Origin: a virus
Virus record (IMG/VR): IMGVR_UViG_3300027917_000088
Location: 1-39,396 of that record
DNA length: 39,396 nucleotides
Strand: one strand, 5' to 3'
Below, piece after piece: positions 10,978 through 32,337 of this stretch. A program made the position numbers and the translations under genes. The first letter of the stretch is position 1, and each line of letters starts with the position of its first letter. A model generated the notes under the pieces. The model had not been told where the DNA came from, did not search any database, and saw only the letters and a list, made by a program, of their open reading frames with translations.

Positions 10978-11547
10978 ATGATCCCTAAACCATTTTTTGA
11001 CCCGGACTACCCGGTTACCACCCTCCAATCCGACTGGGAGCTCCGCCGTGTCCTCGAGATCTTCAAAAAGCTGTCTCCCACCCGCATTATCGAAATCGGC
11101 TGCGAATTCGGCGGAACTCTCTACCAATGGCTCAAACACGCCCCTCCCAAATCCACAATCGTAGTGGTCGACATAATGCCGGTCTCCCCCTACTTCCACT
11201 CCTTCGCCAAAAAGTTCGACCAAAACCTCCACATTATCGCCGGCGACTCCAATAACTCCCAAACCGTCGAAACCGTCCGTGGAATCCTCCCCTCTGTTCA
11301 ATTCCTCCTGATCGACGGCGACCACCACTACTCCTTCACCAAAAAAGACTGGGAACTCTGGCACCCCCTCGTTGAACCCGGGGGAATCATAATGTTCCAC
11401 GACATCGCCGCAATAGGTCCCAATCCGGATAATTGCGCTCGCGAGTTCTGGCTTGAACTCAAAAACTCCACACACCACAAGACCGAAGAAATAATCGAAA
11501 ATCCGGAGCAGACCCACTATGGAACTGGCCTCGTCTATATCGAATAA
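10978..11547 (+). CDS. Class I SAM-dependent methyltransferase (Methyltransf_24 type)
   Basis: A 189-residue Rossmann methyltransferase. Motif I is IIEIGCEFGG (37-46), an acidic VVVDIMP follows strand 2, and the family IDGDHHY motif is at 112-118, with PGGIIMFHDI after it. Proteins of this type (related to CmcI/TylF-like enzymes) often methylate sugars or small molecules and are common in glycan clusters. The DxxH element fits metal-assisted O-methylation. It sits between replication genes, overlapping the DNA polymerase start by 29 bases. It is not a DNA methylase by motif (no DPPY or PC motif). Confidence 0.82.
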   Translation: MIPKPFFDPDYPVTTLQSDWELRRVLEIFKKLSPTRIIEIGCEFGGTLYQWLKHAPPKSTIVVVDIMPVSPYFHSFAKKFDQNLHIIAGDSNNSQTVETVRGILPSVQFLLIDGDHHYSFTKKDWELWHPLVEPGGIIMFHDIAAIGPNPDNCAREFWLELKNSTHHKTEEIIENPEQTHYGTGLVYIE

Positions 11548-13693
11548 TGTCTGGCCCCACGTATTTCATTTCCCAGACCTCGACCTCCCCAAGGTCGTCG
11601 CCATAGACACTGAGACCACCCCCTTCAACCCCCCCGTCTACGCCTGGAGCGGAAAAACCCGCATCGCCCCCTTTGGAGGACACGACCTTGTACTCGCCTC
11701 TATCGCCGGAGAAGGCGCTTGCAGTATTTGGCATCGCGATAATCTGCTGCCTGAGCTTGAACGCCTACTTGAAGACTCTTATCTCCTCATATTCTTCAAC
11801 GCGGCCTTTGACGTCCCCGTCCTCGAAAAAGCCTATCCCCACCTGGGAAGAGTTCTGCGCCAAGCCGTCGACGACCAACGAATCCGCGATTCTCAGCTTT
11901 TGGAAGTTCTTATCCAAATTGCAGACGGACGCCGCACCAGCACCCAACGAAAACTCATCTCCCTTCCCAACCTGCAATACACCGCCTACAAACGCGCCGG
12001 AATGGACATCTCAAAAGATAGTACCCTCCGCACCGGCTTCGCCCCTTTCCTGGACTCTTCAAAGCCCGTACCCGCAAGATTCTTACACTACGCAAGCCAA
12101 GATGCTGTGGCAACGTACCGCGTCTACCAAAGCCAACTCCGCACCGCCCAACACCTAATCCAAATCACCCGCTGCCCCTACCCCGTCTTCAAAGATGCCG
12201 AAAAACGCTTCGGAGTCCTATCCGAGAACATCCAGGTCAAGGGCGCCCTATCCCTGGCCTGGCTTGAGCAGTTCCCCGCCCTCACCGATCAAGCAATGGC
12301 GATCACCCTCCGCACCAAGCTCGAAAAGGAGGCCACCCGCTTCGAAGACGCCCTGTGTAAATACGACTTCGCCCACCGCACCAAAAAACTCGACCGCTTC
12401 CGCCTCAAACAAAAAAAGCTCCGCGAAATCCTCGAAGCCTACGCCAAAGAAACCTCCCTCGAAGTCGAGCGCACCGCCACCGGCCTCCTCAGCCTCGAAT
12501 ACGACTTCTGGTCAAAACACTTCCCAAAAATAGGAAAGGACCTCTATGCCAACCCACAAGACGCCCAAACCCTCTCCGAAAAAATGCAAATCTGGCTCCG
12601 CTACCAACGAGTACGCAAGCTGCTTAGTACCTATGTATACATTTATTCCGCTTCGCCCAAACATTACCCTCGCTACACTAACATTGGCGCACGCACAGGT
12701 CGAACGTCGTCTTCTAAACCGAATTTCCAAAACATTCCCAAACGCCGCGACGGAATCCGCGCCCTCTTCGTCCCCGAAAAAGGTAAAGTCTTTATCGAAG
12801 CAGATTACGACTATGCTGAGCTCGTTGCACTCGCCCAAGTCTACAATAAAATGTACGGCTCTTCTAAGCTCGGAACCGCTATCAACAGTGGTATCGACCC
12901 GCACATTGACACAGCTAACCGAGTCTTCGGTAAAGATCCACCGTTTAACTCCCGCCAAGCTGCAAAAGCTATTAACTTCGGCCTCCCCGGCGGTCTCGGG
13001 GCGAGACACTTTCGGGGCTTTGCTCAAAAAAGCTATGGCGTTACATTCACCAAAGAAGAAGCCGAAAAAATCCGTCTCGACGCCATCGACAGCGATCCCG
13101 AGCTCAAGCGCTACCTCCGCGAAAACGAAACCCAAGAAGAATACCTAAAACGCGCCGCCCGCAACCTCAACATCTCCTGGGAACTGTTTTGCAGTGCTTT
13201 GGAGTGTCCCCTCAAAGATGGCAAAGTTTCTATCCCTCGACTGTACCGTAACCTTCGCCAATGGCTTCTCGGAGCGGCACGCTATCCTCTTCCCATATCT
13301 AATAACTGCGAGCCCGGCGATTTCGACAAAGAGTTCGAGATCTCCCTTCGACCGACCCGCGTACTCACTGGTCGTATACGCGGCCGAAGCACTTACACAA
13401 GCGCTCATAACACTCCATTTCAAGGCCTGGTCGCAGATGGCTGCAAACTTGCGCTATGGAACCTCTATAAAATATGGTGCGATACCCCCATATTCGAACC
13501 CGTGGCATTCATCCACGACTCGATACTTATACAATGTAAACCGTCTGATTTTGACGACGCTAAAATCCTACTTATCGAAGCCATGATCACCGGAATGCGC
13601 GAAGTCTGTCCCGACATAAAAGTCACCGTCCAAATCGAAGGTCCCCTCGACCGCTGGGGCAAGAACACCAACCCCTGGGGAGACGAAGAATGA
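11519..13693 (+). CDS. Family A DNA polymerase with 3'-5' exonuclease
   Basis: A 724-residue replicative polymerase. The exonuclease is intact: ExoI Asp30/Glu32 (DTET), ExoII Asn94/Asp98 (NAAFD), ExoIII Tyr191/Asp195. Polymerase motif A is DYDYAEL with Asp429 and Glu434. Motif B is RQAAKAINFGLPGG with Arg479, Lys483 and Phe487. Motif C is IHDS with His666 and Asp667. Two changes are odd: the tyrosine after motif B (Tyr766 in E. coli Pol I) is glycine, and the acidic residue after the motif C aspartate is serine. No 5' nuclease domain is present. It follows a methyltransferase with a 29-base overlap and is coupled to a zinc-ribbon gene by ATGA. Confidence 0.95.
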   Translation: MELASSISNNVWPHVFHFPDLDLPKVVAIDTETTPFNPPVYAWSGKTRIAPFGGHDLVLASIAGEGACSIWHRDNLLPELERLLEDSYLLIFFNAAFDVPVLEKAYPHLGRVLRQAVDDQRIRDSQLLEVLIQIADGRRTSTQRKLISLPNLQYTAYKRAGMDISKDSTLRTGFAPFLDSSKPVPARFLHYASQDAVATYRVYQSQLRTAQHLIQITRCPYPVFKDAEKRFGVLSENIQVKGALSLAWLEQFPALTDQAMAITLRTKLEKEATRFEDALCKYDFAHRTKKLDRFRLKQKKLREILEAYAKETSLEVERTATGLLSLEYDFWSKHFPKIGKDLYANPQDAQTLSEKMQIWLRYQRVRKLLSTYVYIYSASPKHYPRYTNIGARTGRTSSSKPNFQNIPKRRDGIRALFVPEKGKVFIEADYDYAELVALAQVYNKMYGSSKLGTAINSGIDPHIDTANRVFGKDPPFNSRQAAKAINFGLPGGLGARHFRGFAQKSYGVTFTKEEAEKIRLDAIDSDPELKRYLRENETQEEYLKRAARNLNISWELFCSALECPLKDGKVSIPRLYRNLRQWLLGAARYPLPISNNCEPGDFDKEFEISLRPTRVLTGRIRGRSTYTSAHNTPFQGLVADGCKLALWNLYKIWCDTPIFEPVAFIHDSILIQCKPSDFDDAKILLIEAMITGMREVCPDIKVTVQIEGPLDRWGKNTNPWGDEE

Positions 13694-13986
13694 GATACGA
13701 CAAAAAAGCAAAAGCTTATTACAAAAAACTCCATATTTCGGATATTTCCGACTTCCTTAGTCTGCCTCCTGGGTGTCCTAATGAAAGTGTAGACGCTGCC
13801 AAAAAAGAGTATGATACCTGGTCTGATACAAACTTAGATAAGGTATACCCTACAAACGAATCCATAATATATTTAATATGCAGTCAATGTTTCAGTACGA
13901 CTTTCGAAGTGGCCCAAACCGGCTCCTATCAAACTTCCGCTCGTTGTGTAGAGTGTGGTTTCTGGTATAAAGTGCATTGTGGATAG
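13690..13986 (+). CDS. Zinc-ribbon protein, 98 aa
   Basis: ATG overlaps the polymerase stop by four bases (ATGA). The N-terminal 55 residues are helical and charged. The C-terminal part has Cys64/Cys67 and Cys86/Cys89 (CSQC and CVEC), a zinc ribbon. Codon use is visibly more A/T-ending than in the polymerase, hinting at separate ancestry. Possible DNA-binding accessory factor. Function is not known. Confidence 0.75.
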   Translation: MRYDKKAKAYYKKLHISDISDFLSLPPGCPNESVDAAKKEYDTWSDTNLDKVYPTNESIIYLICSQCFSTTFEVAQTGSYQTSARCVECGFWYKVHCG

Positions 13987-13988
13987 TC

Positions 13989-14732
13989 ATGAAATTCCTA
14001 ATAACCGAACCTCGCGTCCCCGGAACCTTTCTCTCCCGCCAACTCATCGCTCACTGGAACCGCGTCACTCGCGGCCACAATCTCGAATTCTACACTAATC
14101 TCCCCTACGAGGTCCATGGCGAGCTCCTCACCCGTCTCTGGACCACCATCCGCTATGGCCCTCCCGATATCTACCTAATCTCTGAAACCGACATGGTCCT
14201 CAAACGCTCCTTTGTCAAAAAACTCGCTACCTGGCCCTGGCCCGAAAATCTAATCATGGTCCCCTTCATTACTCGGAAAGTCATCGAAGGCCAGCCTGTG
14301 ATTCTCGAGCACGAAGGTCAAACCGGTGCCTGGTTCATGGCCTTCAACCTCACCAAAGTCCAACCCCCTAACTGGCCCCCCCTCGACTGGCTCTCTTACG
14401 GAGGTGTAAACAATGACGCGGCTAATAACGCCCTTAACAATGCTGGCCCTTCTGGCTTTGTGGATTCTATGGGCCTACGACTTCTGGACTGGGAAGATTC
14501 CTATCCTCCCCTTCTTTCTATTAAGTATCCCGCTTGTGGCATTCACTTATTTTTTGCTCGACATTACCATGAAGATTTCAAAAAACCTCTAATCCCCGAT
14601 TTCCCCTACACCGTCGGAGACCACGTCCAGGAATGTCTAAAATATCTCGCGAGAGAGGAGCTCGCTTCGAACGAGCAATCCGGAGGAAAATCGCTCAAAG
14701 TCTCGGCCCGTCCTATACCGTCGAAAGAGTAG
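13989..14732 (+). CDS. Glycosyltransferase-like protein (GT-A, weak), 247 aa
   Basis: Start at ATG 13989; upstream in-frame codons lie in the preceding gene. The sequence IYLISETDMVLKRSF (about 61-75, with Glu66 and Asp68) looks like the DxD-type metal/sugar-nucleotide motif of GT-A enzymes, here as ETD, and GAWFMAFNLTK with a later DSMGLRLLDW segment fit an acceptor-side domain. There is no signal peptide or membrane helix. Its last 100 bases overlap the nuclease gene in another frame. Assignment is tentative: other nucleotide-sugar folds are possible. Confidence 0.5.
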   Translation: MKFLITEPRVPGTFLSRQLIAHWNRVTRGHNLEFYTNLPYEVHGELLTRLWTTIRYGPPDIYLISETDMVLKRSFVKKLATWPWPENLIMVPFITRKVIEGQPVILEHEGQTGAWFMAFNLTKVQPPNWPPLDWLSYGGVNNDAANNALNNAGPSGFVDSMGLRLLDWEDSYPPLLSIKYPACGIHLFFARHYHEDFKKPLIPDFPYTVGDHVQECLKYLAREELASNEQSGGKSLKVSARPIPSKE

Positions 14733-15046
14733 ACGAGTCAGGCTACGGCTACGGAGTCGATATCATTATCAAAGCTCAAGCAAATGACTATACCTTTCCC
14801 GTCGCCATTCAATGCAAAGCCTCTCACAAAACCCGCGATCTCGAGATCGGCCTGGACCAAGCCCGTCTGGGCTGGCCGGGCGCCCGCTTCCACATCTGTA
14901 TACACCGCCTATATTTACAGAACAGACCAACGCGCCCACTACGAATTGCGGCCCACACTCTTGACCGTCCAAATTGCGTCTTTTCCGACCTCTCCTGGCA
15001 AGGTATGATAGATATGATAGGAGACGTCATAGATAATGACCAATGA
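14633..15046 (+). CDS. PD-(D/E)XK nuclease, Holliday-resolvase-like, 137 aa
   Basis: The N-terminal helix SRERGARFERAIRRKIA has Glu13, followed by YGVDIII with Asp43 and VAIQCK with Gln60 and Lys62. This is the PD-(D/E)XK core in the E-D-QxK form used by archaeal Hjc-type resolvases and phage relatives. Size also fits (about 120-150 residues). It stands between replication and packaging genes, where phages place a junction resolvase that clears branched DNA before packaging. The first 100 bases overlap the upstream gene in another frame, and an AGGA site precedes the ATG. A VRR-type or restriction-like nuclease is the alternative. Confidence 0.72.
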   Translation: MSKISRERGARFERAIRRKIAQSLGPSYTVERVDESGYGYGVDIIIKAQANDYTFPVAIQCKASHKTRDLEIGLDQARLGWPGARFHICIHRLYLQNRPTRPLRIAAHTLDRPNCVFSDLSWQGMIDMIGDVIDNDQ

Positions 15047-15446
15047 CGAGCTTACCCCCAGTGCTCGGGCTCTCGAGGACGATCATGCCCCAACTACCCC
15101 TTCTAAAACTCTCGAGCTTGCCCGAGCACTCCTTTCTGCCTGGGAGCACAAACAAGACCCCAAACTCCTCCAGGAAGCCCTGTGCGACAACCCTGATCTA
15201 TCCACAGAGATCATGCGCGCAGGGCTTCTCTCTATTTACATGCACATGTACGACCGTGCACTAACCTCAAAAACCGCCACCTGGACCGAGCTCTTCCTCA
15301 AGCGTTTCGATCCCGAATTCAAAACAAAAGCCGACGACGCCTACCAACGTCAAACTCAAATCAACATCTTCGGCTCCTGGACCACCGACGAGCTCAAAAA
15401 CTTCGTCAAGGCCCAGTCCCGAAAAGTTTTGGGGGAAGCAGTATAG
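15036..15446 (+). CDS. Probable small terminase subunit, 136 aa
   Basis: Overlaps the nuclease gene by 11 bases and lies two genes before the large terminase. The protein is mostly helical with an N-terminal helix pair (KTLELARALLSAWEHKQDPKLLQEAL) and a C-terminal region suited to oligomer contacts (WTTDELKNFVKAQSRKVLG). I see no exact HTH signature. The call rests on position, size and helical content, all usual for TerS, which recognises viral DNA for packaging. Confidence 0.5.
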   Translation: MTNDELTPSARALEDDHAPTTPSKTLELARALLSAWEHKQDPKLLQEALCDNPDLSTEIMRAGLLSIYMHMYDRALTSKTATWTELFLKRFDPEFKTKADDAYQRQTQINIFGSWTTDELKNFVKAQSRKVLGEAV

Positions 15447-15518
15447 TGCCTCTTGTTCCAGAGTATTCCATAAACATAGTAAAAGATTTAGAAGGCCCCG
15501 ATGTCAGGAGACTGAAAA

Positions 15519-15713
15519 ATGACCGACCAACTCCAATCCTGCGGCTGTAAATTCAAGAACGAGCGTGACGATATATCCGGCAAAATGGTCTGTACTCAAA
15601 CCGTCTGGTGCACCCAACACAAACCACCCCCGAAACCGGCTCCCCCCACTCCCAAAGACCAGCACGTTCGTGCCGAAGTCGCCAAGGGAATCGCAGGAAC
15701 CGCCAAAAAGTGA
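15519..15713 (+). CDS. Small Cys-containing protein before the terminase, 64 aa
   Basis: Good AGGAGA ribosome site before the ATG. Four cysteines (CGC near 8-10, C25, C31) and a WCTQH segment suggest a metal knuckle, followed by a Pro-rich linker (KPPPKPAPPTPK) and a basic end. The TGA overlaps the GTG start of the large terminase. Coupling hints at a packaging accessory role, but no family is recognised. Confidence 0.62.
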   Translation: MTDQLQSCGCKFKNERDDISGKMVCTQTVWCTQHKPPPKPAPPTPKDQHVRAEVAKGIAGTAKK

Positions 15714-17290: not shown

Positions 17291-17291
17291 A

Positions 17292-17426
17292 ATGCCCAAA
17301 AAACTCGAAGCCAAACTCAAGCGTGAAGCCCTCAAAAAGTTCGGCTCCACCACCTCCAAAAAAGCTCGTGCTTACATTTACGGCGCCCTCCGTTCAACTG
17401 GCTGGAAGCCCAAAGGAGAAAAATGA
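17292..17426 (+). CDS. Basic phage miniprotein, 44 aa
   Basis: A 44-codon gene directly after the terminase. The protein is strongly basic, and its stop overlaps the next ATG (ATGA). The segment FGSTTSKKARAYIYGALRSTGWKP resembles short phage proteins I know only as hypotheticals. Possible DNA or membrane contact through its lysines. Function is unknown. Confidence 0.65.
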   Translation: MPKKLEAKLKREALKKFGSTTSKKARAYIYGALRSTGWKPKGEK

Positions 17427-17701
17427 AGCTTCTCAAAATCCTTCCCATCTGCGTTGTCCTCTGCCTTTCCGGCTGTGCCTTCCCCGAGCTCCAAAAGGCC
17501 GCGATAGAGCCCGATCCCCGCACCGGTAAAACCCCTCCCCAGGCAATTCTCGACTCGGGCACTGACATTCTCGACTTCCCCCTCAACCTCGGCGCCTGGG
17601 GCGATCTCATTCAAAACATCGTCATCCTCGCCGCTGCCGGCTTCGGCTACAAAGAATGGCGCCGCTTCCGCAAAAACGACACCATAACACCCCAAAAATG
17701 A
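17423..17701 (+). CDS. Lipoprotein with C-terminal membrane helix, possible u-spanin
   Basis: A 92-residue protein with a lipoprotein signal: hydrophobic residues 3-17 and lipobox LSGC with Cys18. A second hydrophobic segment at about 62-76 (LIQNIVILAAAGFGY) is followed by positive residues KEWRRFRK. An outer-membrane lipid anchor at one end and an inner-membrane helix at the other is the plan of unimolecular spanins such as T1 gp11, which fuse the two membranes at lysis. This copy is shorter than T1 gp11 and no endolysin or holin is adjacent. Placement near the terminase resembles T7, which has its spanins there. Confidence 0.55.
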   Translation: MKLLKILPICVVLCLSGCAFPELQKAAIEPDPRTGKTPPQAILDSGTDILDFPLNLGAWGDLIQNIVILAAAGFGYKEWRRFRKNDTITPQK

Positions 17702-18213
17702 GCGTTCAAAACGGCTGGTTCACCTGGCCTCTTTTCTACCAGAGCTTGGCTTTAAGTGCCACCGGCCCCATTGTCGAGCTCGGAGTCTGGCTTGGCCATT
17801 CCTTGTATTTCCTGCACTCAAACCTCGTTGCAGCCGGCAAATACATCCACCTGGTCGGGGTCGACGCCTTCGACGCTCGAGGCGGCACTCCCGAAATGTT
17901 CGAGTTCTCGAAAACCCATGACTTATACGAGCTTGCCCGCACCTATCTCCCCCTCGAAATCGCCCTCATAAAAGGGGACACCAAATCAGTCGCCTCCTCC
18001 TTCCCCGACAAATACTTTTACGCCTGTTTCATAGACGCTTCTCACGACTATGATTCTGTCAAAAATGATATAGAGGCCTGGCTACCAAAAACTCATGGCA
18101 TTATCGCCGGCCACGATATACTCGAACCTTCTGTCCGCAGTGCTGTAGAAAGTATTTTCCCTGATTTCTGCTCCGACCCCGGACAAAATATATGGATAAA
18201 AAAACTGACCTAA
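17698..18213 (+). CDS. Class I SAM-dependent methyltransferase (Methyltransf_24 type)
   Basis: A 171-residue methyltransferase starting at ATG 17698, overlapping the lipoprotein stop (ATGA). Motif I is IVELGVWLGHS, a VGVDAFDA follows, and IDASHDY at 112-118 is the family's Asp/His motif, then IIAGHDI. It resembles the other two methyltransferases here, though Gly114/Asp115 are replaced by Ala/Ser. It overlaps the following glycosyltransferase gene by 22 bases, so the two are probably made together, which suggests methylation of a transferred sugar. Confidence 0.82.
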   Translation: MSVQNGWFTWPLFYQSLALSATGPIVELGVWLGHSLYFLHSNLVAAGKYIHLVGVDAFDARGGTPEMFEFSKTHDLYELARTYLPLEIALIKGDTKSVASSFPDKYFYACFIDASHDYDSVKNDIEAWLPKTHGIIAGHDILEPSVRSAVESIFPDFCSDPGQNIWIKKLT

Positions 18214-19034
18214 TCCTCGGAGTCCTCCTCCGAACCCACCGCCGCGCCAAAACCCTACGGATCGTCCTCGACGAGCTCCTCCGCTACGGCACCTTCCCCG
18301 GCATATCTGTAAGAATCCACGTTTCCCTCGACCGTCCCACCGCCGAGGTCGCTGACCTCCTCGAATCCTATCGTCACAAAATCTGGGGCTTCCTCAAAAC
18401 CAAACGCCCCCTCCTTTCCGCCGAATACGGCGAACTCTTCATGCCCGCCGCCAACGAACAGCTCGCCGCCTTCGAAAAAGTCAACGCCGACTGGTACCTC
18501 CTTTGGGATGACGATAGCTGGTACGAGCCCCTATCAATCACGGAAGAGCTCCCCTCGGCCCTTACCAACCCCGATATCGACGTCTGGACGGCTACTACCC
18601 TTTATTTCTGGGATACCCCTTTTACCTATCGGGCGGATAGGCCCCATTACGCCCCTTCCCTTTTCCGAGTCCTACCTGGAGACCGTTTCCCCCTAAACCG
18701 AATCCTGCTCTGCACTGAAAATCGTTTCGATACAGCCTTCATCCAGAACCGAATCGGGCAGTTAAAAACTCCCATTTTCGGCTATGGTACTTTTGACGAA
18801 ACCGACCGCCGCCTAACCTACGAAGCCTTCGCGACGGCTGGGAAGGTCGACTCCTTCACCCTGAAAGGCCTCCAGCCTCCACCCCGTCTCGACCGATTCC
18901 CTGAAGACGCCCTCAAACAAGGGCTCATTCAGCGACCGGACTGGACCGACCTCTGGACAAAGTACTATGGAACGGAAAACCAACCCCCTCAGCCTGAGCG
19001 TCCTGTCGAACTTGCGGCTGGGAAGCTCGGATGA
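18192..19034 (+). CDS. GT2-like glycosyltransferase, 280 aa
   Basis: N-terminal ILGVLLRTHRRAKTLRIVL is the first strand-helix of GT-A enzymes. WYLLWDDDSWYEP carries the metal-binding Asp106-Asp107-Asp108. No membrane segment is seen, so it is probably soluble. It follows a methyltransferase with a 22-base overlap, and its last 68 bases overlap the portal gene in another frame. A role in glycosylating virion protein or host glycan is inferred. Confidence 0.7.
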   Translation: MDKKTDLILGVLLRTHRRAKTLRIVLDELLRYGTFPGISVRIHVSLDRPTAEVADLLESYRHKIWGFLKTKRPLLSAEYGELFMPAANEQLAAFEKVNADWYLLWDDDSWYEPLSITEELPSALTNPDIDVWTATTLYFWDTPFTYRADRPHYAPSLFRVLPGDRFPLNRILLCTENRFDTAFIQNRIGQLKTPIFGYGTFDETDRRLTYEAFATAGKVDSFTLKGLQPPPRLDRFPEDALKQGLIQRPDWTDLWTKYYGTENQPPQPERPVELAAGKLG

Positions 19035-22439: not shown

Positions 22440-23354
22440 TTGCCGCTCCTCACTTATGATGAATTAGGAGCGTTACAAGGTGGAGCAGGTTCGATCCGCG
22501 AGGACCTGATGGATTTCATTGAAATCCTCAGCCCGAGCGATACGCCCCTCTTCAACAACCTCGGCGCCATCAAAGTAAACGCTGGCTACGTCGAGTACCT
22601 CGAAGACTCCCTCACGGCTGCGGCCAACAACGCCTGGCCTGAAGGAGCCCAAGCCACCGATATCACTCTGACCGCCCCGAGCCGTAACGCCTCTCTCGTT
22701 CAAAACTACCAAAAACACTTCCACGTCTCCGGCAGACAGCAAGCCGTCCTCCATGCTGGTATGAGCTCCATGCTCTCCCACCAGGAGATGAAGGCTGTGC
22801 GCGAGATCAAGACCGATATCGAGCTCGCCCTTCACCGAGGCTCGGCTGTCACCGGAACAACCACAGCCGCCGCTCACATGGTGGGACTCCTCAATCTCGC
22901 CTCTACCAACGCCACTCAAGAATCCGGTGTCACCCTGACCGAAAAGGTCTTCAATGACATCCTCTCCCTTGCCTATTCCTATAATGTCAATCTGCGCGAA
23001 ATGTACGCCAACCTCCCGATCAAGCGGACGGTCAACCAATACACCACAAGTGTAACCCGTTTCCTGCCCGCCGCTGATCGCCGGCAGTACGACATCATCG
23101 ACGTCTACGAGTCCGAAGTCGGCGTTCTCGCGCTCTTCAAATCCAGGTACCAGCTCACCACGACCAACCTCCAAACCTGGGTTGCTATCGACCCCGAGTA
23201 CTTTCAGGTCGGCTGGCTTCGCCCGCTGAACACCCGGACCCTCGGAATCGACGGCGACCGGGAACGCCGGATGATCGTCGGTGAATGCACCCTCATCTAC
23301 CGCAGTGAAAAGGCCGCCGTAGCCTGTACCGGCTGCACGACCTACATAACCTAA
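22440..23354 (+). CDS. Major capsid protein (HK97 fold, SU10/DUF5309-like), 304 aa
   Basis: Begins at TTG 22440, seven bases after AAGGAG; the nearby ATGs are out of frame and quickly hit stops. The protein has the pattern of the SU10-like major capsid family: an N-terminal REDLMDFIEILSPSDTPLFNNLG segment, then NAWPEGAQA, a basic QNYQKHFHVSGRQQ and ELALHRGSAVTG, and a C-terminal WLRPLNTRTLGIDGDRERRMIVGECTL. It forms the icosahedral shell. Gene order (portal, scaffold, capsid) and the strong terminator immediately after it agree. A TTG start for the most abundant virion protein is unusual. Confidence 0.9.
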   Translation: MPLLTYDELGALQGGAGSIREDLMDFIEILSPSDTPLFNNLGAIKVNAGYVEYLEDSLTAAANNAWPEGAQATDITLTAPSRNASLVQNYQKHFHVSGRQQAVLHAGMSSMLSHQEMKAVREIKTDIELALHRGSAVTGTTTAAAHMVGLLNLASTNATQESGVTLTEKVFNDILSLAYSYNVNLREMYANLPIKRTVNQYTTSVTRFLPAADRRQYDIIDVYESEVGVLALFKSRYQLTTTNLQTWVAIDPEYFQVGWLRPLNTRTLGIDGDRERRMIVGECTLIYRSEKAAVACTGCTTYIT

Positions 23355-23426: not shown

Positions 23427-25064
23427 ATGGTCGAGCCCTACGAACTCACCTTTGCCAATCTGGTCCGAACCACAATCGACGGATCTTTCGTCGACACCGA
23501 TCTCACTCTTGACGTCACTGCGGGCACCGGCGCCCGCTTCACCGCCACCCCCTGCCGTGCAATCCTCTGGCAATCCACCGACTACGCCGACCCCGCCCTC
23601 GCCTACTGGGCCGGAGAAGCCGAAATCCTCGAAATCTCGAGCGTCGCCACCGACACTTTAACCGTCGTCCGTGGCCGCGAAGGCACAACTGGAATCTCCT
23701 CCACCGGCGGTAAAACCTACTCCATCGCCCAAACCCTCACCTCCGACAGTATCGGAAGCTACATTAACACCTACAACGTCCGCGACTACGGCGCCACCGG
23801 CGACGGTGTAACTGACGATTCCACTGCCGTCCAGGCCGCCATAACCGCCTGCGCTTCCGGCGAAGGAACAATCTACTTCCCTCCCGGAACCTATTTATGC
23901 AACAGCACTCTTGATTTCACCGGAAGCTCTACCGGCCACCTCCGCCTCCTCGGCGCCGGCCCCGAGTCCTCCGTAATCAAATGCGCCCATGCCACTCTCG
24001 GAATGAACTTCCAATTCGGCGTAGCCAAGGGCGGTGTAGAAATCACCTCCCTCGCAATCGCCGGCGACCAAACCGGCCCCGACGAACTCATCGAATTCAA
24101 CTACGGCTACGAAATCTTCATCCATGACTGCCACTTCAAAGACGCCGAAATCCTCCTTTCCTTCGGTGTCAACATGTCCCACACCCATATCCATAACAAT
24201 GTATTCTCCTGGAACGTAGCCCCTGCCAATTCCCGCGCCATTTACCTGCGCCAATGCAGCCTCTTCTCCATCGCCAACAACACCTTTGAAGGCGCCAGCG
24301 CCACCACCAAATTTATTCTCGCCGATGGCGTCAACGAAAAACAGCAGCTCTCCATAATCGGCAACACCTTCACCGGCACCTACGACGACGTAATCCAATT
24401 CGGCCAATCTGGCGCCGGCGGCGACTTCGACCGTGTTTCCATAATCGGAAACGTGGCCAACTCCGTCACCGGCCAATTCTTCGCCCAATCCTACGGCACT
24501 CTCGACGATTCCATAATCGCCAACAACATCGCCCGAGGCACCGGCGCCTCCACTGCCATTGAAATCTCAATCACCGCCACAAACGTCTCAATTCTAAACA
24601 ACTCCCTTCTGAATTTCTCAAGCAAATACAACGTTTCCGGCTTCGCCTCCTCCAGCTACATCATCGACAATGAATCCGGCTTTTCCCGTATCACCGACGG
24701 AACGAACAACCTCGATCTCTACCCAGCCCGTGTAACAACCACCCAATTAACAAGCCCCTTCCAAACCGTCGTCGCCGCCAATGACACCGAAATCGACCTA
24801 TCCGCCGGCCGTCACGTCCGCCTCACCCTTGGCGCCAACGTGTCCAACGTTTCCCTATCAAACCCCATAGACGGAGAACTCGTAGCGATAAAAGTAATCC
24901 AATCCGGCTCATTCGGAGTAGACGGCTGGCCCACCAACGTCAAATGGCGTGCCGGGTCCGCCCCAACAATAACCACAGGCGCGGGAGCTATCGACATCGT
25001 CACCCTGCTCTACTCGTCCGACGACACCGAATACATAGGATCCTATGACCAAGACTTTTCTTGA
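23427..25064 (+). CDS. Tailspike with pectate-lyase-like beta-helix, 545 aa
   Basis: The N-terminal 110 residues look like a small beta-rich virion-attachment region. Residues 117-131 read NVRDYGATGDGVTDD, the hallmark start of Pectate_lyase_3 right-handed beta-helix domains, and the following 300 residues repeat beta-helix rungs (IIGNTF, IHNNVFSW, IANNTFEG). A C-terminal beta domain follows (about 440-545). Such tailspikes bind and often cleave surface polysaccharide. It overlaps a glycosyltransferase gene by 20 bases. Ribosome site AGGAA precedes the ATG. Confidence 0.87.
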   Translation: MVEPYELTFANLVRTTIDGSFVDTDLTLDVTAGTGARFTATPCRAILWQSTDYADPALAYWAGEAEILEISSVATDTLTVVRGREGTTGISSTGGKTYSIAQTLTSDSIGSYINTYNVRDYGATGDGVTDDSTAVQAAITACASGEGTIYFPPGTYLCNSTLDFTGSSTGHLRLLGAGPESSVIKCAHATLGMNFQFGVAKGGVEITSLAIAGDQTGPDELIEFNYGYEIFIHDCHFKDAEILLSFGVNMSHTHIHNNVFSWNVAPANSRAIYLRQCSLFSIANNTFEGASATTKFILADGVNEKQQLSIIGNTFTGTYDDVIQFGQSGAGGDFDRVSIIGNVANSVTGQFFAQSYGTLDDSIIANNIARGTGASTAIEISITATNVSILNNSLLNFSSKYNVSGFASSSYIIDNESGFSRITDGTNNLDLYPARVTTTQLTSPFQTVVAANDTEIDLSAGRHVRLTLGANVSNVSLSNPIDGELVAIKVIQSGSFGVDGWPTNVKWRAGSAPTITTGAGAIDIVTLLYSSDDTEYIGSYDQDFS

Positions 25065-25743
25065 CAAGCAAAAAGTATTCATCCACATTCCCACGCTCGA
25101 CTCAAAAGTCGAACTTGGCCTAATGATCGCGTGCATAACCTGGTGCCGAAACGTCAAAATTTCGGTCAACGGGAGCGTCCACCAAATCCCCCTCGACCAC
25201 GCCCGAAACACCGCCGTCGACTACTTCCTAGAAAAAAAGACCGACTGCACCCACTTCTGCGGAATCGATTCCGATATGCTCCCAACCCCCGGCCTCCTCG
25301 AAGCTCTCCTATTATGCAACAAGGACGTCATCGCCCCCTTGATCTACACGGTCAAACCCGACTGTGACCCAACTAACCCGAAAAACGTCCCGGTCCCCGT
25401 CCCCTTCCCCATTGTATGCGAGCGCAAAAACGGAAAACTAAAGCCCAAAGCCCCTCCCCAACGCCCTGTAATCTTCGAAAGCGACCTCTTACCCGGTGGC
25501 TTCTACCTCGTCAAGCGCCGGGTAATTGAAAAACTCCGCAAACCCGCCTTCCGGTACAAATACGACCGAAAAGGCTACCTTGCAGGAGGCACCGACAATT
25601 ACTTCTCCGAACGTATCCAGGAAGCCGGCTTCAAAATCCACGTCCACGCCGGCCTCCACGCCGACCAAAACGTAACCATTGGCGCGGCCATGTTCAACGA
25701 CACAATGGCCCGCTACTGTCTATCACAAAGGAGTGAACCCTAA
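25045..25743 (+). CDS. GT-A glycosyltransferase-like protein, 232 aa
   Basis: Begins inside the end of the tailspike gene (20-base overlap, AGGATCC site). The LDHARNTAVDYFLE helix followed by CTHFCGIDSDMLP with Asp75-Ser-Asp77 is the DxD core of GT-A proteins, with a distal GGTDNYFSERIQEAGFKIHVHAG segment. No signal or membrane segment. Coupling to the tailspike suggests it modifies that protein or acts with it on a surface glycan. Confidence is good for the fold, modest for substrate. Confidence 0.72.
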   Translation: MTKTFLDKQKVFIHIPTLDSKVELGLMIACITWCRNVKISVNGSVHQIPLDHARNTAVDYFLEKKTDCTHFCGIDSDMLPTPGLLEALLLCNKDVIAPLIYTVKPDCDPTNPKNVPVPVPFPIVCERKNGKLKPKAPPQRPVIFESDLLPGGFYLVKRRVIEKLRKPAFRYKYDRKGYLAGGTDNYFSERIQEAGFKIHVHAGLHADQNVTIGAAMFNDTMARYCLSQRSEP

Positions 25744-26204
25744 TGGCTTCAACCTGCTGGTTCCACAATGCCTTCCGCCGTGGCATGGACACCCTCACAG
25801 ACTTCTCAAAAGTCGCGTCCATGAAAGCCGCGCTCTTCCAAAAAGCCTACGTCCCCAACCCCGACCACGAAACCATAAACGACGTCAAAGCCATCGGCTC
25901 GGAATGCGATGCCACCAACTACGCCCGCAAAACAATCTCAAACTGGGTCTTCACCTGCGCCGATGCGTCCAACCGCTTCCAAGTCACCTCCAGCGACTCC
26001 TTCACCTGGGCCACGCTTGGAAACGGCACAAACAACTCTCTCGACACCCTAATCCTCTTCTACGACACCGACACCACAGACACCAACGCCTATGTCATGT
26101 GCTGTCTCTACCTCGGAAGCCGCGTCTCCACCAACGGAGGAAACCTCAAAGTCTCGTTCTCCTCCACCGGCGTCATTGGTTACGTAACGTGTGACGCAGC
26201 ATAG
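25743..26204 (+). CDS. Probable virion structural protein, 153 aa
   Basis: Stop-start overlap TAATG with a strong AAAGGAGTGA site. The sequence resembles a common phage head/tail protein of about 150 residues that begins with a KAALF strand, continues with ETINDV and EC-ATNYARKTI, and ends with a run of beta strands (TLILFYDTD, AYVMCCLYLG, LKVSFSSTGVIGY). Decoration or tail-tip role is likely, since it stands among tailspike and fibre genes. Confidence 0.65.
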   Translation: MASTCWFHNAFRRGMDTLTDFSKVASMKAALFQKAYVPNPDHETINDVKAIGSECDATNYARKTISNWVFTCADASNRFQVTSSDSFTWATLGNGTNNSLDTLILFYDTDTTDTNAYVMCCLYLGSRVSTNGGNLKVSFSSTGVIGYVTCDAA

Positions 26205-26210
26205 GAAGTA

Positions 26211-26972
26211 ATGGCTGAACTCATCATAAAAATAGGTACTAATGGTCCTAATCCAGCGTATCAGGATGGGGATATTGTCGATGCTTTCAATAGTCGCCGC
26301 ATCAAGTTCGGCCATGCTTGGGATATCTGCAAGCCCCACGACAAGGGCTTCAACTCTGACGGGCTTAGGGATTCCATTTTATTAGAAGCATTTGAGTCAA
26401 AAACAAACGAATATAAATATGAGCGAATCAGTAAAACTGAAGTAAGGCGAACAAATCTAAAAACCCTCAATGTTGTTGTTATTGGAAAAACCCCAGATTC
26501 TAACGGCCATTTTATTCACGTCGAGGCATTTCTTGTACGGCGATTAAGGAACAACCGGCATCGCATATTTGGATCAAGTGGTTCAGAACGATGGTATGGC
26601 GGCGAATCTATCAATATGTCTAATACTGTTGTCGGCGAAATATGGGATGCCATCGAAATAAATACGCCACATAGGCGTCAGGATTTTGAAAAGTTGTCTC
26701 TATCTCCCAACATGAAAAAGGCGTTTTTGGTTCTGTCTGTGGATGATTTCGATGATGCAGTTGCCGACCAGTTAGTAGAGCCGGTATCAGAAAAATACAT
26801 AGATCCTCAAGGCGTAGAATTAGAGCGAATAAAAGTCAAGCGGAAGCGTTACGTTAATTATCCAATTATTCCATTAATCGCCTCATCGATAGAAGACATA
26901 AGGAATCGTGCTATCGAGGTGGATGTTAGGCACACCACGTTACTACGTTCGGCTATCGTGAGTATTAAATAA
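26211..26972 (+). CDS. Phage protein in the tail region, 253 aa, unknown
   Basis: Starts with MAELIIKIG then PAYQDGDIVDAFNSRRIK, a pattern I know from phage/metagenome hypotheticals that accompany fibre genes. It is rich in charged alpha/beta segments, with no signal peptide. Its base composition (A/T-ending codons) differs sharply from the genes to its left and agrees with the first half of the next gene, so it probably came in with that module. Confidence 0.7.
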   Translation: MAELIIKIGTNGPNPAYQDGDIVDAFNSRRIKFGHAWDICKPHDKGFNSDGLRDSILLEAFESKTNEYKYERISKTEVRRTNLKTLNVVVIGKTPDSNGHFIHVEAFLVRRLRNNRHRIFGSSGSERWYGGESINMSNTVVGEIWDAIEINTPHRRQDFEKLSLSPNMKKAFLVLSVDDFDDAVADQLVEPVSEKYIDPQGVELERIKVKRKRYVNYPIIPLIASSIEDIRNRAIEVDVRHTTLLRSAIVSIK

Positions 26973-28697
26973 ATGGCGACGGTTACTAAAAGTATTAAGG
27001 CTTCAGGGGGAGACTATTCTTCTATTGCTTCTTGGGAAGCTGACTTAGATACTACTCCCGATCCTTATAACAGTGGCGATGATGCGATTGGAGAATGTTA
27101 TGATGAGGTATATTCTGAACATGTTTCTATTACCCATGGAGCTACAGTTGGTTTAAATAGCATTACTCTTCGAGCGGCTGCAGATGAGGGGCATGATGGA
27201 ACAGCGGGGACTGGAGCGAGAATCGTTGCCACGGGCACAACTAATTTATTAACAACCAACGTAGATGTAGACGTATCTTTGTGCTATCTGGAATTAAATG
27301 GAAACGGAAACGCCATCCAATATCTAAATGCGGCGACTGCACAAGATTTAAGTACTTTGCGTGGATTAATAGTACACAATGTTGCTCGGTATGGCACAAC
27401 AGGCGGAATTTCGTCAGGTGTATGGAATGCATCAAAGCGAAATGTTCTAAATTGTTTTGTTTGGAATCTACAGCAGCAAGGGGCTGGGTTAACTACAGGA
27501 ATTATACAATACGGACATAACTCGCATTATGGATATATTGCGAACTGTAGTGTATATAATATTACTCATACGGGATCAGGGACAGCTAACGGAGTATCAA
27601 ACCCGGACTACAATAACAACCATGTACGAAATACTATAGTTATTGGCAGCACGACGGCGGACTTTTCAGTAGAGCCGACAAATGATCAGGATTATGTGAT
27701 TTCTTCGGACACTACAGCCAGCGGAACTAATGTAGTTGAGAATGCTATAGCCGCCGACAATTTCACAAGCACCAGCCCAGTAGATTTACACATTCCAGAC
27801 ACCGATGCTGATAGCTATCAATTTGCTGAGGATTTAGGCACTTCTCCCGCTGGTGTCCAATATGACATTGATCAGGAATCTGGATCGGTAAATGGCCGGG
27901 ATAGGGATACTCAAGGCGATACTTGGGATTGTGGGGCGGATCAGTATGTAGCTGGAAGCGGAGAACAATCTGTCACCTGTTCCGTGGCCTCCGCTACTGC
28001 CACTGGCGTAGACACTTCCGTTACCCTTGGCCAAATCTCCCGCACCTGTACTGTTGCCGCTGCCACTGCTACCGCCGTAGATACGTCTGCCGATCAAACC
28101 CTATCTGTTACCTGCTCCGTAGCCGCCGCCATAGCTTCCGCCGCCCCAGCCTCCGTCGAACTCGGAGAAATCACTCGAACTTGCACCGCCGCCTCTGCCG
28201 ACGCCGTTGCAGTTGACGCCTCCAACGAACTCCAGGGGGGTCCCCAATCTGTCACTTGCTCCGTTGCCGCAGCCTCCGCCTCTTGTGCTCCTGCTTCTGT
28301 CGAGCTTGGTGAGATCACCCGCACCTGCACCGTTGCGGCTGCCGACGCAACCGGCGTCCAAACCAGCGTCACCCTTGGCGAAATCACCCGCACCTGCACC
28401 GTCGCCATAGCCACTGCCGAAGGCGTCCCCCTCTCTATTGAACTGGGCGAAATAACCCGCACCTGCACTGCTGCCTCAGCCGATGCTGTTGGCGCTCCCT
28501 GCACTAACTTTACTGGAATCGGTGTCCGCTGTACTGTGGCTTCCGCCACCGCCTCCTGCGCCCCGGCCTCCGTTGAACTGGGCGAAATCTCTCGAACCTG
28601 CACCGCTGCCTCAGCCGACGCCATTGGTGTCGACGCCTCCAACGCAATGTCCGGAGTCGGCTACAGCCCCAACCCCGTCTTTTTAATGGGAGTATAA
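26973..28697 (+). CDS. Tail fibre with beta-helix head and Cys-repeat tail, 574 aa
   Basis: Residues 1-325 look like a right-handed beta-helix (GGDYSSIASWEADL opening; NCFVWN and NCSVYN rungs). From about 331 to 560 the chain is a repeat of roughly 20-23 residues built on TCTVAAATA and LGEITRTCT, with a cysteine in each copy. Composition changes inside the gene at about 27960: the head is A/T-rich with T/A-ending codons, and the repeat part has C-ending codons like the rest of the phage. This suggests a chimeric receptor-binding gene. The repeats could form a stalk. Stop of the previous gene abuts the start. Confidence 0.75.
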   Translation: MATVTKSIKASGGDYSSIASWEADLDTTPDPYNSGDDAIGECYDEVYSEHVSITHGATVGLNSITLRAAADEGHDGTAGTGARIVATGTTNLLTTNVDVDVSLCYLELNGNGNAIQYLNAATAQDLSTLRGLIVHNVARYGTTGGISSGVWNASKRNVLNCFVWNLQQQGAGLTTGIIQYGHNSHYGYIANCSVYNITHTGSGTANGVSNPDYNNNHVRNTIVIGSTTADFSVEPTNDQDYVISSDTTASGTNVVENAIAADNFTSTSPVDLHIPDTDADSYQFAEDLGTSPAGVQYDIDQESGSVNGRDRDTQGDTWDCGADQYVAGSGEQSVTCSVASATATGVDTSVTLGQISRTCTVAAATATAVDTSADQTLSVTCSVAAAIASAAPASVELGEITRTCTAASADAVAVDASNELQGGPQSVTCSVAAASASCAPASVELGEITRTCTVAAADATGVQTSVTLGEITRTCTVAIATAEGVPLSIELGEITRTCTAASADAVGAPCTNFTGIGVRCTVASATASCAPASVELGEISRTCTAASADAIGVDASNAMSGVGYSPNPVFLMGV

Positions 28698-28700
28698 CCT

Positions 28701-28958
28701 ATGGCAATCGCTGGCTGGCCAATCGCAAGTTTCCCAATCGCCGGAGCCGCCGGCCAAGCCGATGACTCCGCCCCCTCCTACGCTGCCGTAGCCGAGGAAT
28801 TCCTCTACCAAACTTTCCAGGACTACACGGCCACAAGCGGCGACTTCTACAACATCAACCGCCAAGACATGCGCCCCCTCGAACCCTACGTTGACAATGT
28901 CACTCCCTTTTTCTGTCCCGGAAACCATTCAACCGCACTGGAGAAAGCGTTCTGGTAA
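28701..28958 (+). CDS. Small protein after the fibre gene, 85 aa
   Basis: A GGGAG site precedes the ATG. The N-terminal repeat-like GWPIASFPIAGAAGQA and a following acidic segment suggest a small structural or fibre-associated peptide. One of several short genes between fibre and methyltransferase. No motif is recognised. Confidence 0.55.
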   Translation: MAIAGWPIASFPIAGAAGQADDSAPSYAAVAEEFLYQTFQDYTATSGDFYNINRQDMRPLEPYVDNVTPFFCPGNHSTALEKAFW

Positions 28959-29353
28959 TGGAAGTCCTGATAAAAAACGCCGCCTTGGAATCTCTTCTCG
29001 AAGCCATTGGCGAAGAGTACCGCCGGGTCTGCCCTGGCGAGTACGAAAAATTCATTCGCTACGTCCAAGAGGAGTCCAAAGTCCTCGTCAAACCCACCGG
29101 CATGTCCGCCGACGGCTCTTTCATGAACATGATGAAACTTCCCATAATCCGCACCAAGGACGGCCGCGTCGGCAACATGTACTCCTTCATCAAACACCAG
29201 GTAGAAAAGCGCTGCGGCATCCCCGACTTCTTCGCCGACCGCAAAAACTACCAACTCCTCTGTAAAGTCTGGAAAGACGCTTACGTCCGCAAACAAAAAA
29301 CCACTCGCCTCGACTTAGGAGCGACTAAAAATGCAGAAAATCTCCCCTTCTGA
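28958..29353 (+). CDS. Phage protein, 131 aa, unknown
   Basis: Stop-start overlap (TAATG) with the previous gene. It is mostly helical, basic in its C-terminal half (KNYQLLCKVWKDAYVRKQKTTRL) with an IIRTKDGRVGNMYSFIKHQVEKRCG segment. It ends inside the methyltransferase gene by 23 bases. No family, signal or membrane segment is recognised. Confidence 0.65.
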   Translation: MEVLIKNAALESLLEAIGEEYRRVCPGEYEKFIRYVQEESKVLVKPTGMSADGSFMNMMKLPIIRTKDGRVGNMYSFIKHQVEKRCGIPDFFADRKNYQLLCKVWKDAYVRKQKTTRLDLGATKNAENLPF

Positions 29354-29915
29354 CTTCCTCACCGAAGTCCTCCAATCCACCCATGAGCCCAGGGATCACC
29401 ACGACGGCGTCCAGCCCGAGAACCATGGTTCTGTCTTCCACGAAGAAGGTCAAATCTTGACCAATCTCGCCCTCGTCCTTGGCGGTGATGCCCTCGAAAT
29501 CGGCACCTGCCTTGGAATCTCCACCCGCTATATCTCCGAAGGTCTCGACGTCCATGGTTCCGGCAACGTCCACACCGTTGATATCCACCCCGAATTCCTT
29601 TTCGACGCTTCCTGGCCTCGCATAACTCAACATACCTGCAATTCCGCCTACTTTCCCTGTCGCCCCTTCAAGTGGGCCTTCATAGACGGCGACCACAAAT
29701 ATCCCGGTGTCGTCACCGACATCGAGATCGCCCTCGAATGCTCCTGTAACTACCTCATATTCCACGACACTTCCCCGATTGTCGAATCTGTCCAAAAGGT
29801 CAGCGACGCCCGCAAAGCTGTCCTCGACAATCTCAAAGAATCCGAGTGGGAACTTTTCGACATAACCACCCACTGTGGAATGATATACGCAAGACGGAGA
29901 CCACAAAATGACTGA
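29331..29915 (+). CDS. Class I SAM-dependent methyltransferase (Methyltransf_24 type)
   Basis: A 194-residue methyltransferase with AGGAGCGAC ribosome site. Motif I is ALEIGTCLGISTRY, an acidic THTVDIHPEF follows, and IDGDHKY at 118-124 gives the family Asp/His pair, then YLIFHDT. It overlaps the GT2-TPR-GT4 gene by eight bases. It is the third enzyme of this family in the phage and the second one coupled to a glycosyltransferase, so a sugar or sugar-decorated target is likely. Confidence 0.85.
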   Translation: MQKISPSDFLTEVLQSTHEPRDHHDGVQPENHGSVFHEEGQILTNLALVLGGDALEIGTCLGISTRYISEGLDVHGSGNVHTVDIHPEFLFDASWPRITQHTCNSAYFPCRPFKWAFIDGDHKYPGVVTDIEIALECSCNYLIFHDTSPIVESVQKVSDARKAVLDNLKESEWELFDITTHCGMIYARRRPQND

Positions 29916-32337
29916 GGGAATCTCAATCTGCCTCATCACCAAAAACGTCGCAAAGTACGTCCAGGACTGTTTCGCCTCAATCCGGGAATTCCTGCGCCCC
30001 GGAAAAGGCGATGAAATCGTCGTCTGTGACACCGGCTCCACCGACGACACCATGAAAATTGCCGAGGACAACCGAGCCCGGGTCTTCCACCACCCCGAGC
30101 TCAATGTCCCCGGTATGCTCGATCTGGTCAAAGAGCACCTCCCCGACCACTACGACCGCTGCGCCGAGGACGACCAATTCTCCGACGGCTTCCTCCGCGA
30201 CTTCTCCGAGGCCCGAACAATCTCTTTCAGCCACGCCAAAAACGACATCTGTTTCTGGATTGACGCTGACGACGTCCTGACCTATCCCAAGGAACTCCGT
30301 GCCGAGGCCGCTGAACTATTCTCCGACCCTCAATTCGCCGCTCTCTTCCTCCCGTACGAGTACGCCTACACCGAAGACGGCGCCTGTGAAACTCTGCTCT
30401 GGCGCGAACGAATCTTCCGTAGAACACGCTTTCAGTGGGCCGGCCGCTGCCATGAAACCCTCGTACCCCTCTCAGGCGACATGCGTGTCGTCAAGACCCA
30501 AACCCCATCTACCATCCAACACAAACACGGCCGGCACCACTTATATTCCGATATCCGAAACTACGTGATCCTTCTCGAGCACTACAAAGAGGACCCCAAC
30601 AAAGACCCCCGCACTGAGTTCTATCTCGGGAACGCCTGTCGCGGCCTGGCCAGCGGTAAAACCGGAAGTCCCTGGTACAAGCGCGCCATCGAATGGTACT
30701 TCCGCGCCTACAAACGTTCGGGCTCTCGCGACGACCGTGTGAACATCCTCTTGAACATCGCGTATATCCACCACCAACACGGCCGCCCCTGGCGTGCCAT
30801 CGACTGGTTCAATCAGGCGATCAAACTATACCCGGCCGAGCCCCGGGCCTATTTCGGCATCGCCCACTGCTACCGTGATCTCAAGCGCTGGCACGACTGT
30901 ATCATCTACACCAAGTTCGGCCGCGACCTCGGTCGTCCCGAGCACGTAATCTCCGTCGACCCTCTCGCCTTCGACTACTACCCCACCCTCTTCGAGATCG
31001 ACGCCCTAAAAAACCTGGGCGAGTACGATCTGGCAATCCAGCAAGCCTACCACCTGCTCCAAACCCGACCGACCTTCGCCGGCTGTGAAATCATCCTCAA
31101 GGAGCTCGCCGCCGAGCGCGAACGAAAAAAGGCCATCACCGCCGTCCAGATCGTCAGCGACATGGCCTTCTCCCCGGCCGCTGCCCGGGAGATTTACCAG
31201 CGCATCAAACCCGAAGTCCGTAAAATCTTTCCTGAACTCCAGTTAGAGACCTGCGCCCCGCCTCCGAAAAAGCACGTCACGTTCTTTTGCGCGGGCAACT
31301 GGGAGCCCTGGGACTCTTCGAGCCTCGAGAATGGCATAGGCGGAAGCGAAAAAATGGTCATCCTCCTCGCCGAAGGTCTCGCCGCCCGAGGCTGGAACGT
31401 CGACGTTTACGGACACCCTTCCAAGGACAACACTTACCGTTCGTTAAATAAAGTAACCTACAGGCCATACCAATCCTTCAACTACGAATTCCCTCGTGAC
31501 AACCTTATCCTCTGGCGCTCTCCTGCTCTCCTCGACATACCCTTCCGCGCCAACAAAATCTTCGTCGACATGCACGACGTCTCAAACGACGCTGACTGGA
31601 CCGAGCCCCGTCTATCCAAGCTCCATGGGGTATTCTTCAAATCCAAGTTCCACCGGGAAACCGCCAAAGCTATTCCCGAAGAAAAAGTAATCTACTCTCG
31701 CAACGCGATCAACACCGACACGCTTCCCCCCTCTTCTGCCCGCAATTATAATCGAATCGTCTGGTTGAGTTCCCCTGACCGTGGCCTCCTGGGCGCCCTC
31801 CGAATCTTCGCCCTCGTCAAAGAAAAACACCCCGACGCCCAATTCCAAATCTTCTACGGCTTCACCCCCCTCTACGTCACCAAAGCCTCAAACCAGGAAT
31901 ACGAATTCATGGGCGATGACCGTTGCAGCCGTCACATGCTCGAGTACCAGGAAGACGTCTTCACCCTTGCAGACAAGCTCGACGCCGAATTTCTCGGCCG
32001 CACCGGCCACACCGCTCTCATGCAATCCCTCTCTCAATCGAGCATCTGGCTCTACCCCACCCGCTTCCCCGAAATCTCCTGCATTTCTGCTATGGAAGCC
32101 ATGGCCTCCGGCGTAATCCCCATCTGCACCCAGACCGCCGCCCTAAAAGAAACCGTCAACTTCGGCACTCCCATCCTCGACCCCGACGACTACCCCTCTA
32201 TCGCCAACTCTATCTCTGACGTAATCGAGAAGGGCGCCGACCTTGACTCCTATCGTGAAAAAATGGCCAAAGACGCCCGATCCCGTTTCGCTCTCTCCGA
32301 CCTCGTCACCCAGTGGGAAAAGGAATTCCAAAAATGA
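29908..32337 (+). CDS. Two-domain glycosyltransferase, GT2-TPR-GT4, 809 aa
   Basis: Three parts in one chain. Residues about 1-230 are GT2: ISICLITKNVAKYVQDC, VVCDTGSTDDT and the metal motif FWIDADD (Asp119, Asp121, Asp122). Residues about 235-410 have TPR-like helices (NILLNIAYIHHQHGRPWRAI and AYFGIAHCYRDLKRW). Residues about 450-809 are GT4-like: GGSEKMVILLAEGLAARGWNVDVYG and, at 722-730, EISCISAME, the EX7E donor site. Large GTs with TPRs are usual in protein or cell-surface glycosylation systems and rare in phages. It is coupled by overlap to a methyltransferase and to the next tail gene. Confidence 0.9.
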   Translation: MTEGISICLITKNVAKYVQDCFASIREFLRPGKGDEIVVCDTGSTDDTMKIAEDNRARVFHHPELNVPGMLDLVKEHLPDHYDRCAEDDQFSDGFLRDFSEARTISFSHAKNDICFWIDADDVLTYPKELRAEAAELFSDPQFAALFLPYEYAYTEDGACETLLWRERIFRRTRFQWAGRCHETLVPLSGDMRVVKTQTPSTIQHKHGRHHLYSDIRNYVILLEHYKEDPNKDPRTEFYLGNACRGLASGKTGSPWYKRAIEWYFRAYKRSGSRDDRVNILLNIAYIHHQHGRPWRAIDWFNQAIKLYPAEPRAYFGIAHCYRDLKRWHDCIIYTKFGRDLGRPEHVISVDPLAFDYYPTLFEIDALKNLGEYDLAIQQAYHLLQTRPTFAGCEIILKELAAERERKKAITAVQIVSDMAFSPAAAREIYQRIKPEVRKIFPELQLETCAPPPKKHVTFFCAGNWEPWDSSSLENGIGGSEKMVILLAEGLAARGWNVDVYGHPSKDNTYRSLNKVTYRPYQSFNYEFPRDNLILWRSPALLDIPFRANKIFVDMHDVSNDADWTEPRLSKLHGVFFKSKFHRETAKAIPEEKVIYSRNAINTDTLPPSSARNYNRIVWLSSPDRGLLGALRIFALVKEKHPDAQFQIFYGFTPLYVTKASNQEYEFMGDDRCSRHMLEYQEDVFTLADKLDAEFLGRTGHTALMQSLSQSSIWLYPTRFPEISCISAMEAMASGVIPICTQTAALKETVNFGTPILDPDDYPSIANSISDVIEKGADLDSYREKMAKDARSRFALSDLVTQWEKEFQK

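Follow-up and report, generated by a model that had tools for sequence, protein, structure and literature searches.

To our knowledge, glycosylated virions have been documented in few systems, these being a few tailed phages and the giant algal viruses. Freeman et al. 2023 reportedly found that the virions of mycobacteriophages are glycosylated by phage glycosyltransferases (GTs). In actinobacteriophages, GT genes together with methyltransferase genes have been taken to indicate glycosylated virions (PMC13313380). The chlorovirus PBCV-1 encodes A064R, a GT-GT-methyltransferase, which together with A061L builds and methylates the terminal portion of the glycan on the capsid (PMC9614988). GmaR, the flagellin O-GlcNAc transferase of Listeria, has a GT2 domain followed by TPRs (PMC3150276), the same order as in the phage protein described below.

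The window analysed here is a whole linear virus record of 39,396 bases from an uncultivated, podovirus-like bacterial virus. It encodes GT809, an 809-amino-acid GT2-TPR-GT4 fusion, along with further GT candidates and methyltransferases. Virion glycosylation by phage GTs is known from mycobacteriophages, and the window most likely represents a variant of it with a GT2-TPR-GT4 fusion and methyltransferases. Mycobacteriophages are likewise tailed phages with GTs but form another phage group, and the window is set apart by description through the conserved GT2-TPR-GT4 fusion beside its capsid gene. A search of the literature did not find this cassette described in podovirus-like phages.

The window resembles PBCV-1 in that its enzymes are virus-encoded and look soluble and in that sugar-nucleotide genes are also carried by the virus. 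Two GT domains and a methyltransferase are linked in both, fused in A064R and adjacent in the window, and methyl capping of a terminal sugar is shared, which for the window is proposed from its gene content. Unlike GT809, A064R is without TPRs and the GT2-TPR-GT4 order and extends an N-glycan started by other enzymes; its host is eukaryotic. Glycan structures have been solved for the chlorovirus and virion glycosylation is known for mycobacteriophages, whereas the window is known from genes alone.

Gene organisation of the window

The window consists of two blocks. The leftward one includes sugar genes and an exonuclease. The rightward one opens with a gene at 9254 and a DNA polymerase resembling family A, continues with terminase, portal, capsid and tailspike genes and ends with more virion-like proteins. 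The gene-poor gap between the blocks holds short direct repeats (7952–8167; a 16-base periodic array and a 36-base pair), possibly an origin or regulatory region. The major capsid protein (22440–23354, plus strand; PHROG major head protein) served as the genomic anchor and is a candidate acceptor, as is the tailspike protein (23427–25064, plus strand; PHROG tail spike). No close DNA-level relatives of positions 15000–39396 were found in the phage collection, and defence-system models run on the window gave no match.

All seven ORFs named in the initial annotation (starting at 10978, 13989, 17698, 18192, 25045, 29331 and 29908) were recovered. Five of its seven labels are firm, namely the three Methyltransf_24 proteins, the GT2 protein at 18192 and the GT2-TPR-GT4 protein at 29908; those of 13989 and 25045 are weaker. 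The overlaps it reported, of 22 and 8 bases in two methyltransferase-GT pairs and of 20 bases between a GT and the tailspike gene, are exact. Neighbouring rightward genes overlap at 16 of 28 junctions, so overlap was rejected as a sign of GT-methyltransferase pairing.

Domain structure and relatives of GT809

GT809 (29908–32337, plus strand) was identified by Pfam, homologues, a structure model and its motif. It comprises a GT2 domain (residues ~1–215), a TPR region (~216–400) and a GT4 domain (~450–809). The model, built from 12 sequences, was confident (pLDDT 87, pTM 0.83), and the catalytic WxDxDD motif was invariant across all 12 homologues. Structural comparison placed the C-terminal domain among GT-B enzymes of the GT4 type, with Z scores reaching 30.6 (rmsd 2.8 over 324 residues).

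Comparison of the GT2 domain alone with solved structures revealed homology to GmaR (2.4e-27), SunS (4.6e-14) and ThuS (3.5e-12). Polysaccharide GT2 enzymes were far weaker, with chondroitin synthase next at 1e-7 and others worse, and the domain is thus more like polypeptide GTs than like polysaccharide enzymes. A Foldseek search with the whole model ranked SunS first, followed by SPINDLY, ThuS and OGT, although the TPR part's likeness to OGT and SPINDLY reflects to some extent what TPRs have in common. These nearest proteins, GmaR, SunS, ThuS, SPINDLY and OGT, are polypeptide GTs. GmaR differs from GT809 in ending with an anti-repressor domain where GT809 has a GT4 domain, and it acts on flagellin. 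The S-glycosyltransferases SunS and ThuS target bacteriocin cysteines and have no GT4 domain; SunS comes from a Bacillus subtilis prophage. A viral structure library contained giant-virus and uncultured Caudovirales proteins of similar build, two of which carry an FkbM methyltransferase annotation; sequences of related proteins were thus already available.

Other glycosyltransferase candidates

A GT2-like protein just above the Pfam cut-off is encoded immediately upstream of the portal gene (18192–19034, plus strand), and in phage contigs L001, L020, L006 and L008 homologues also precede the portal gene. By Pfam, both GT809 and 18192 are thus phage-encoded GTs. The 18192-family profile had no match among PDB sequences.

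Neither 13989 nor 25045 matched Pfam or NCBIfam. The former (13989–14732, plus strand), weakly labelled a probable GT-A-fold protein, has homologues in L001 and L020. Its model is of low confidence (pLDDT 61) and was closest to the LH3 GT domain (Z 7.5, rmsd 4.0 over 158 residues), with a resemblance to domain 1 of PBCV-1 A064R (Z 6.6, rmsd 4.1 over 164). This middling match from a low-confidence model is only suggestive of a GT-A-like fold, and Foldseek with 13989 returned nothing under an E-value of 0.03. The gene at 25045–25743 (plus strand) is the one that overlaps the tailspike gene by 20 bases. Its product, weakly labelled a possible GT-A protein, has a DSD motif and matched a PHROG glycosyltransferase weakly (E 5e-4); homologues were found neither in viral contigs, the relatives nor PDB sequences.

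Searches for 18192, 25045 and 13989 in phage records gave no match, and hhalign among 13989, 18192, 25045, the GT809 GT2 domain and the other GT candidates of the phage MW202718 detected no homology. Membrane-spanning stretches were absent from all four GTs and from the methyltransferases, and the proteins therefore look soluble as judged from their sequences.

GT809 in other phages and in bacteria

About 18 other phage records, two of them complete circular Manatee Spring phages, encode GT809 in the virion-gene region. In L001, L020, L006, L007, L008, L009, L011, L024 and MW202718 the capsid gene comes first and GT809 follows a short way on; in another clade (L010, L014, L017, L018 and MW202497) GT809 precedes both the portal and the capsid gene. 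Some members of the latter clade encode the GT2-TPR and GT4 parts as two distinct genes. A GroEL chaperonin gene upstream of the portal gene separates the two halves in L014 (11579–13141), L015 (8634–10202), L017 (11734–13302), L018 (3100–4824) and L084 (MW202497; 5640–7208). In L024 the capsid region and GT809 are separated by a gene with a PAPS-reductase domain (7472–8182), and one may ask whether sulfur chemistry takes place close to the GT.

The portal and terminase of L001 and L020 are ~50% identical to those of the window. Both contigs retain GT809 (48% identity), the pre-portal GT 18192 (36–40%) and the 13989 homologue (26–29%). Neither contig had a match to the tailspike, to GT 25045 or to the genes after 25045. 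In their place, 387 and 60 bases beyond the capsid gene respectively, stands a homologue of 28958–29353 (plus strand), which in the window encodes a small conserved protein of 131 amino acids (17–45% identity in an alignment over seven contigs). In several relatives, homologues of this protein are encoded at GT809 or a little way before it. As L001 and L020 are both fragments, the presence or absence of the left operon and of 10978 is not readable from them.

Bacterial homologues of GT809 were mostly GT2-TPR or GT4 parts with no other window phage gene nearby, and therefore no host is suggested. Tentatively, the GT2-TPR-GT4 enzyme may belong to the virion-gene core of a broad group of uncultivated tailed phages, in which glycosylation and methyl capping of the particle might be old and largely host-independent, in parallel with the giant algal viruses, and not an occasional accessory.

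Methyltransferases and their adjacency to GT809

All three methyltransferases of the window (plus strand) were above the curated Pfam cut-off for Methyltransf_24 (E 1.4e-15, 5e-15 and 2.5e-10). The first (10978–11547) lies upstream of the DNA polymerase gene, between it and the gene at 9254, with no GT adjoining. It also passed the cut-off for Pfam RMNT_CmcI but fell short of the NCBIfam thresholds for NanM-type and rhamnosyl O-methyltransferases. The accessory genes at 17698–18213 and 29331–29915 overlap GT 18192 by 22 bases and GT809 by 8 bases, respectively, and matched no named sugar O-methyltransferase family. A profile of the window methyltransferases found nothing among PDB sequences. 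Methyltransf_24 was absent from L001 and L020, which keep the GTs at ~50% portal and terminase identity; 17698 and 29331 are thus, by this comparison, lineage-specific genes inserted beside conserved GTs.

The coupling of GT and methyltransferase genes that the initial annotation had proposed recurs elsewhere: in eight other contigs a methyltransferase lies within ~200 bases of GT809 or of the split GT4 half. It follows GT809 or the GT4 part with an overlap of 8 bases in L010 and L013, 23 in L011 and 11 in L014, and is ~80 to 200 bases away in L018, L015, L020 and L017. The partners are of the Methyltransf_11, 23 or 31 type, unlike the Methyltransf_24 partner of the window, which is also on the other side of GT809. 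Co-occurrence in relatives accordingly holds for the adjacency and not for the methyltransferase family, and GT-methyltransferase pairing draws its support from this cross-genome comparison, the overlaps carrying no weight. In MW202497, a 'capping protein' in the partner's place is 51–61% identical to the methyltransferase family of the relatives.

The pairs of L010, L013, L014, L015, L017 and L018 involve one orthologous family, so few independent events are represented. A random-placement test over five contigs gave p ~4e-6, which overstates the evidence, as the L010 and L017 pairs are orthologous. The three methyltransferase Pfam families were found in none of eight contigs without GT809 (0/8), some of them short. 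Among GT809 carriers, no methyltransferase was seen in L001, L006, L007, L008, L009, L022 and L024, some of which are fragments, and the two methyltransferases of MW202718 are several kilobases away from GT809.

The left operon and sugar supply

The left operon (1940–4560, minus strand) was assigned by Pfam and encodes an SDR (3748–4560), a DegT aminotransferase (2774–3793), a small excisionase/MerR-like HTH protein that overlaps both of its neighbours (2545–2808) and a formyltransferase (1940–2548). By sequence comparison, the best solved relative of the formyltransferase is PseJ (2.5e-29); later steps of pseudaminic acid synthesis were not recognised in the window. The operon is a possible, optional supplier of an N-formylated amino-deoxy sugar nucleotide. 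Searches for the formyltransferase and DegT in phage records found none.

The formyl-sugar operon had been proposed to form one system with the GTs and methyltransferases. This part of the proposal was not supported by comparison with MW202718, a complete circular relative that keeps GT809, more GT or GT-like genes and two methyltransferases, while no DegT was found in it and its annotation lists no formyltransferase or other left-operon gene. The case that the initial annotation had named as counting against a single system, relatives without the left operon that keep the GT and methyltransferase genes, is thereby largely realised. Other sugar genes occur beside GT809 in further contigs. In L011 (7725–13886) a GDP-mannose 4,6-dehydratase, DegT, a cytidylyltransferase-like protein, LicD, a GT2 and a GT10-like protein are encoded next to GT809 and its methyltransferase, and in L009 a DegT, a Gfo/Idh/MocA oxidoreductase and several GTs are found beside GT809. 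Because MW202718 is without the left-operon genes and L009 and L011 carry others, the gene content makes sugar supply look like a module that can be swapped; in the window phage, GT809 may or may not draw on the left operon.

Proposed pathway and alternative explanations

We propose, with a probability of roughly 0.6, that the genes encode a soluble phage pathway by which a virion protein is glycosylated and methyl-capped. Cytosolic glycosylation of a virion protein is suggested because GT809 is nearest to polypeptide GTs and the proteins look soluble. GT809 would be the conserved core of this system. Its TPR region would hold a virion protein or precursor, its N-terminal GT2 domain would attach a first sugar and its C-terminal GT4 domain would add a second. 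The 18192 protein, and perhaps those of 13989 and 25045, would extend or diversify the glycan, the neighbouring methyltransferases would cap sugar hydroxyls with methyl groups, and the left operon would optionally supply the N-formylated amino-deoxy sugar nucleotide. The genes and their domains, the conserved catalytic motifs, the position in the virion region and the recurrent GT809-methyltransferase adjacency are observed; we infer the enzymatic activity, the protein acceptor, the order of steps and the methylation of the sugar rather than of another target. If the proposal is correct, virion glycosylation extends to environmental podovirus-like phages, through a soluble two-GT fusion encoded by the capsid genes with a swappable methyltransferase, and GT809 becomes a compact cytosolic protein-glycosylation enzyme for study. 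Any phage with a GT809 gene could then be tested for virion glycosylation by mass spectrometry.

The initial annotation had left the target as a virion protein or a host glycan. The former is the likeliest, with the GT2 domain of GT809 nearest to peptide and protein GTs. It is rather unlikely that the enzymes act on a surface glycan of the host at a late stage of infection, for instance against re-adsorption of progeny to debris or to exclude other phages. Phages often change host surface glycans, this phage has a tailspike, and next to GT809 L011 carries LicD and GT10-like genes of a kind similar to surface-glycan genes; yet the GTs are without membrane anchors, the GT2 domain is nearest to polypeptide GTs and the genes lie within the virion block and not in an early or lysogeny block. 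The genes do not match a Gtr-type serotype-conversion cluster, as none of the four GTs is membrane-spanning (0/4) and no flippase was recognised among the genes examined.

That the GTs and methyltransferases are independent acquisitions with no common product, clustered at tolerated insertion sites between virion genes, would fit four GT families without detectable mutual homology, the lineage-specific 25045 and window methyltransferases, the position of 10978 away from any GT and that of 25045 with the tailspike. We regard it as improbable, since methyltransferases of different families repeatedly adjoin GT809 and rarely occur elsewhere, and homologues of GT809, 18192 and 13989 persist together at ~50% portal identity. 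Least credible is glycosylation or methylation of phage DNA bases against restriction, for which we see hardly any room. The GTs of T-even phages do work on DNA, one PHROG match of 10978 and 17698 is named 'DNA methyltransferase' and far down the Foldseek list there is a phage DNA alpha-GT, but none of the genes examined was recognised as encoding a base hydroxymethylase or as serving hypermodification, the Methyltransf_24 proteins with their RMNT/CmcI match point to small-molecule or sugar O-methylation, and GT809 is similar to peptide GTs.

Under glycosylation of a virion protein, one further acceptor was considered and set aside, the protein encoded at 26973–28697, for which composition and position are what hint at such a role. 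It is rich in Ser/Thr, Ala and Cys, consists of ~23-amino-acid repeat units, of which six copies were detected at the DNA level, and had no PHROG match. The preceding gene (26211–26972), within the region missing from L001 and L020, has a low GC content (0.417 against ~0.55 around it) and is probably a recent acquisition.
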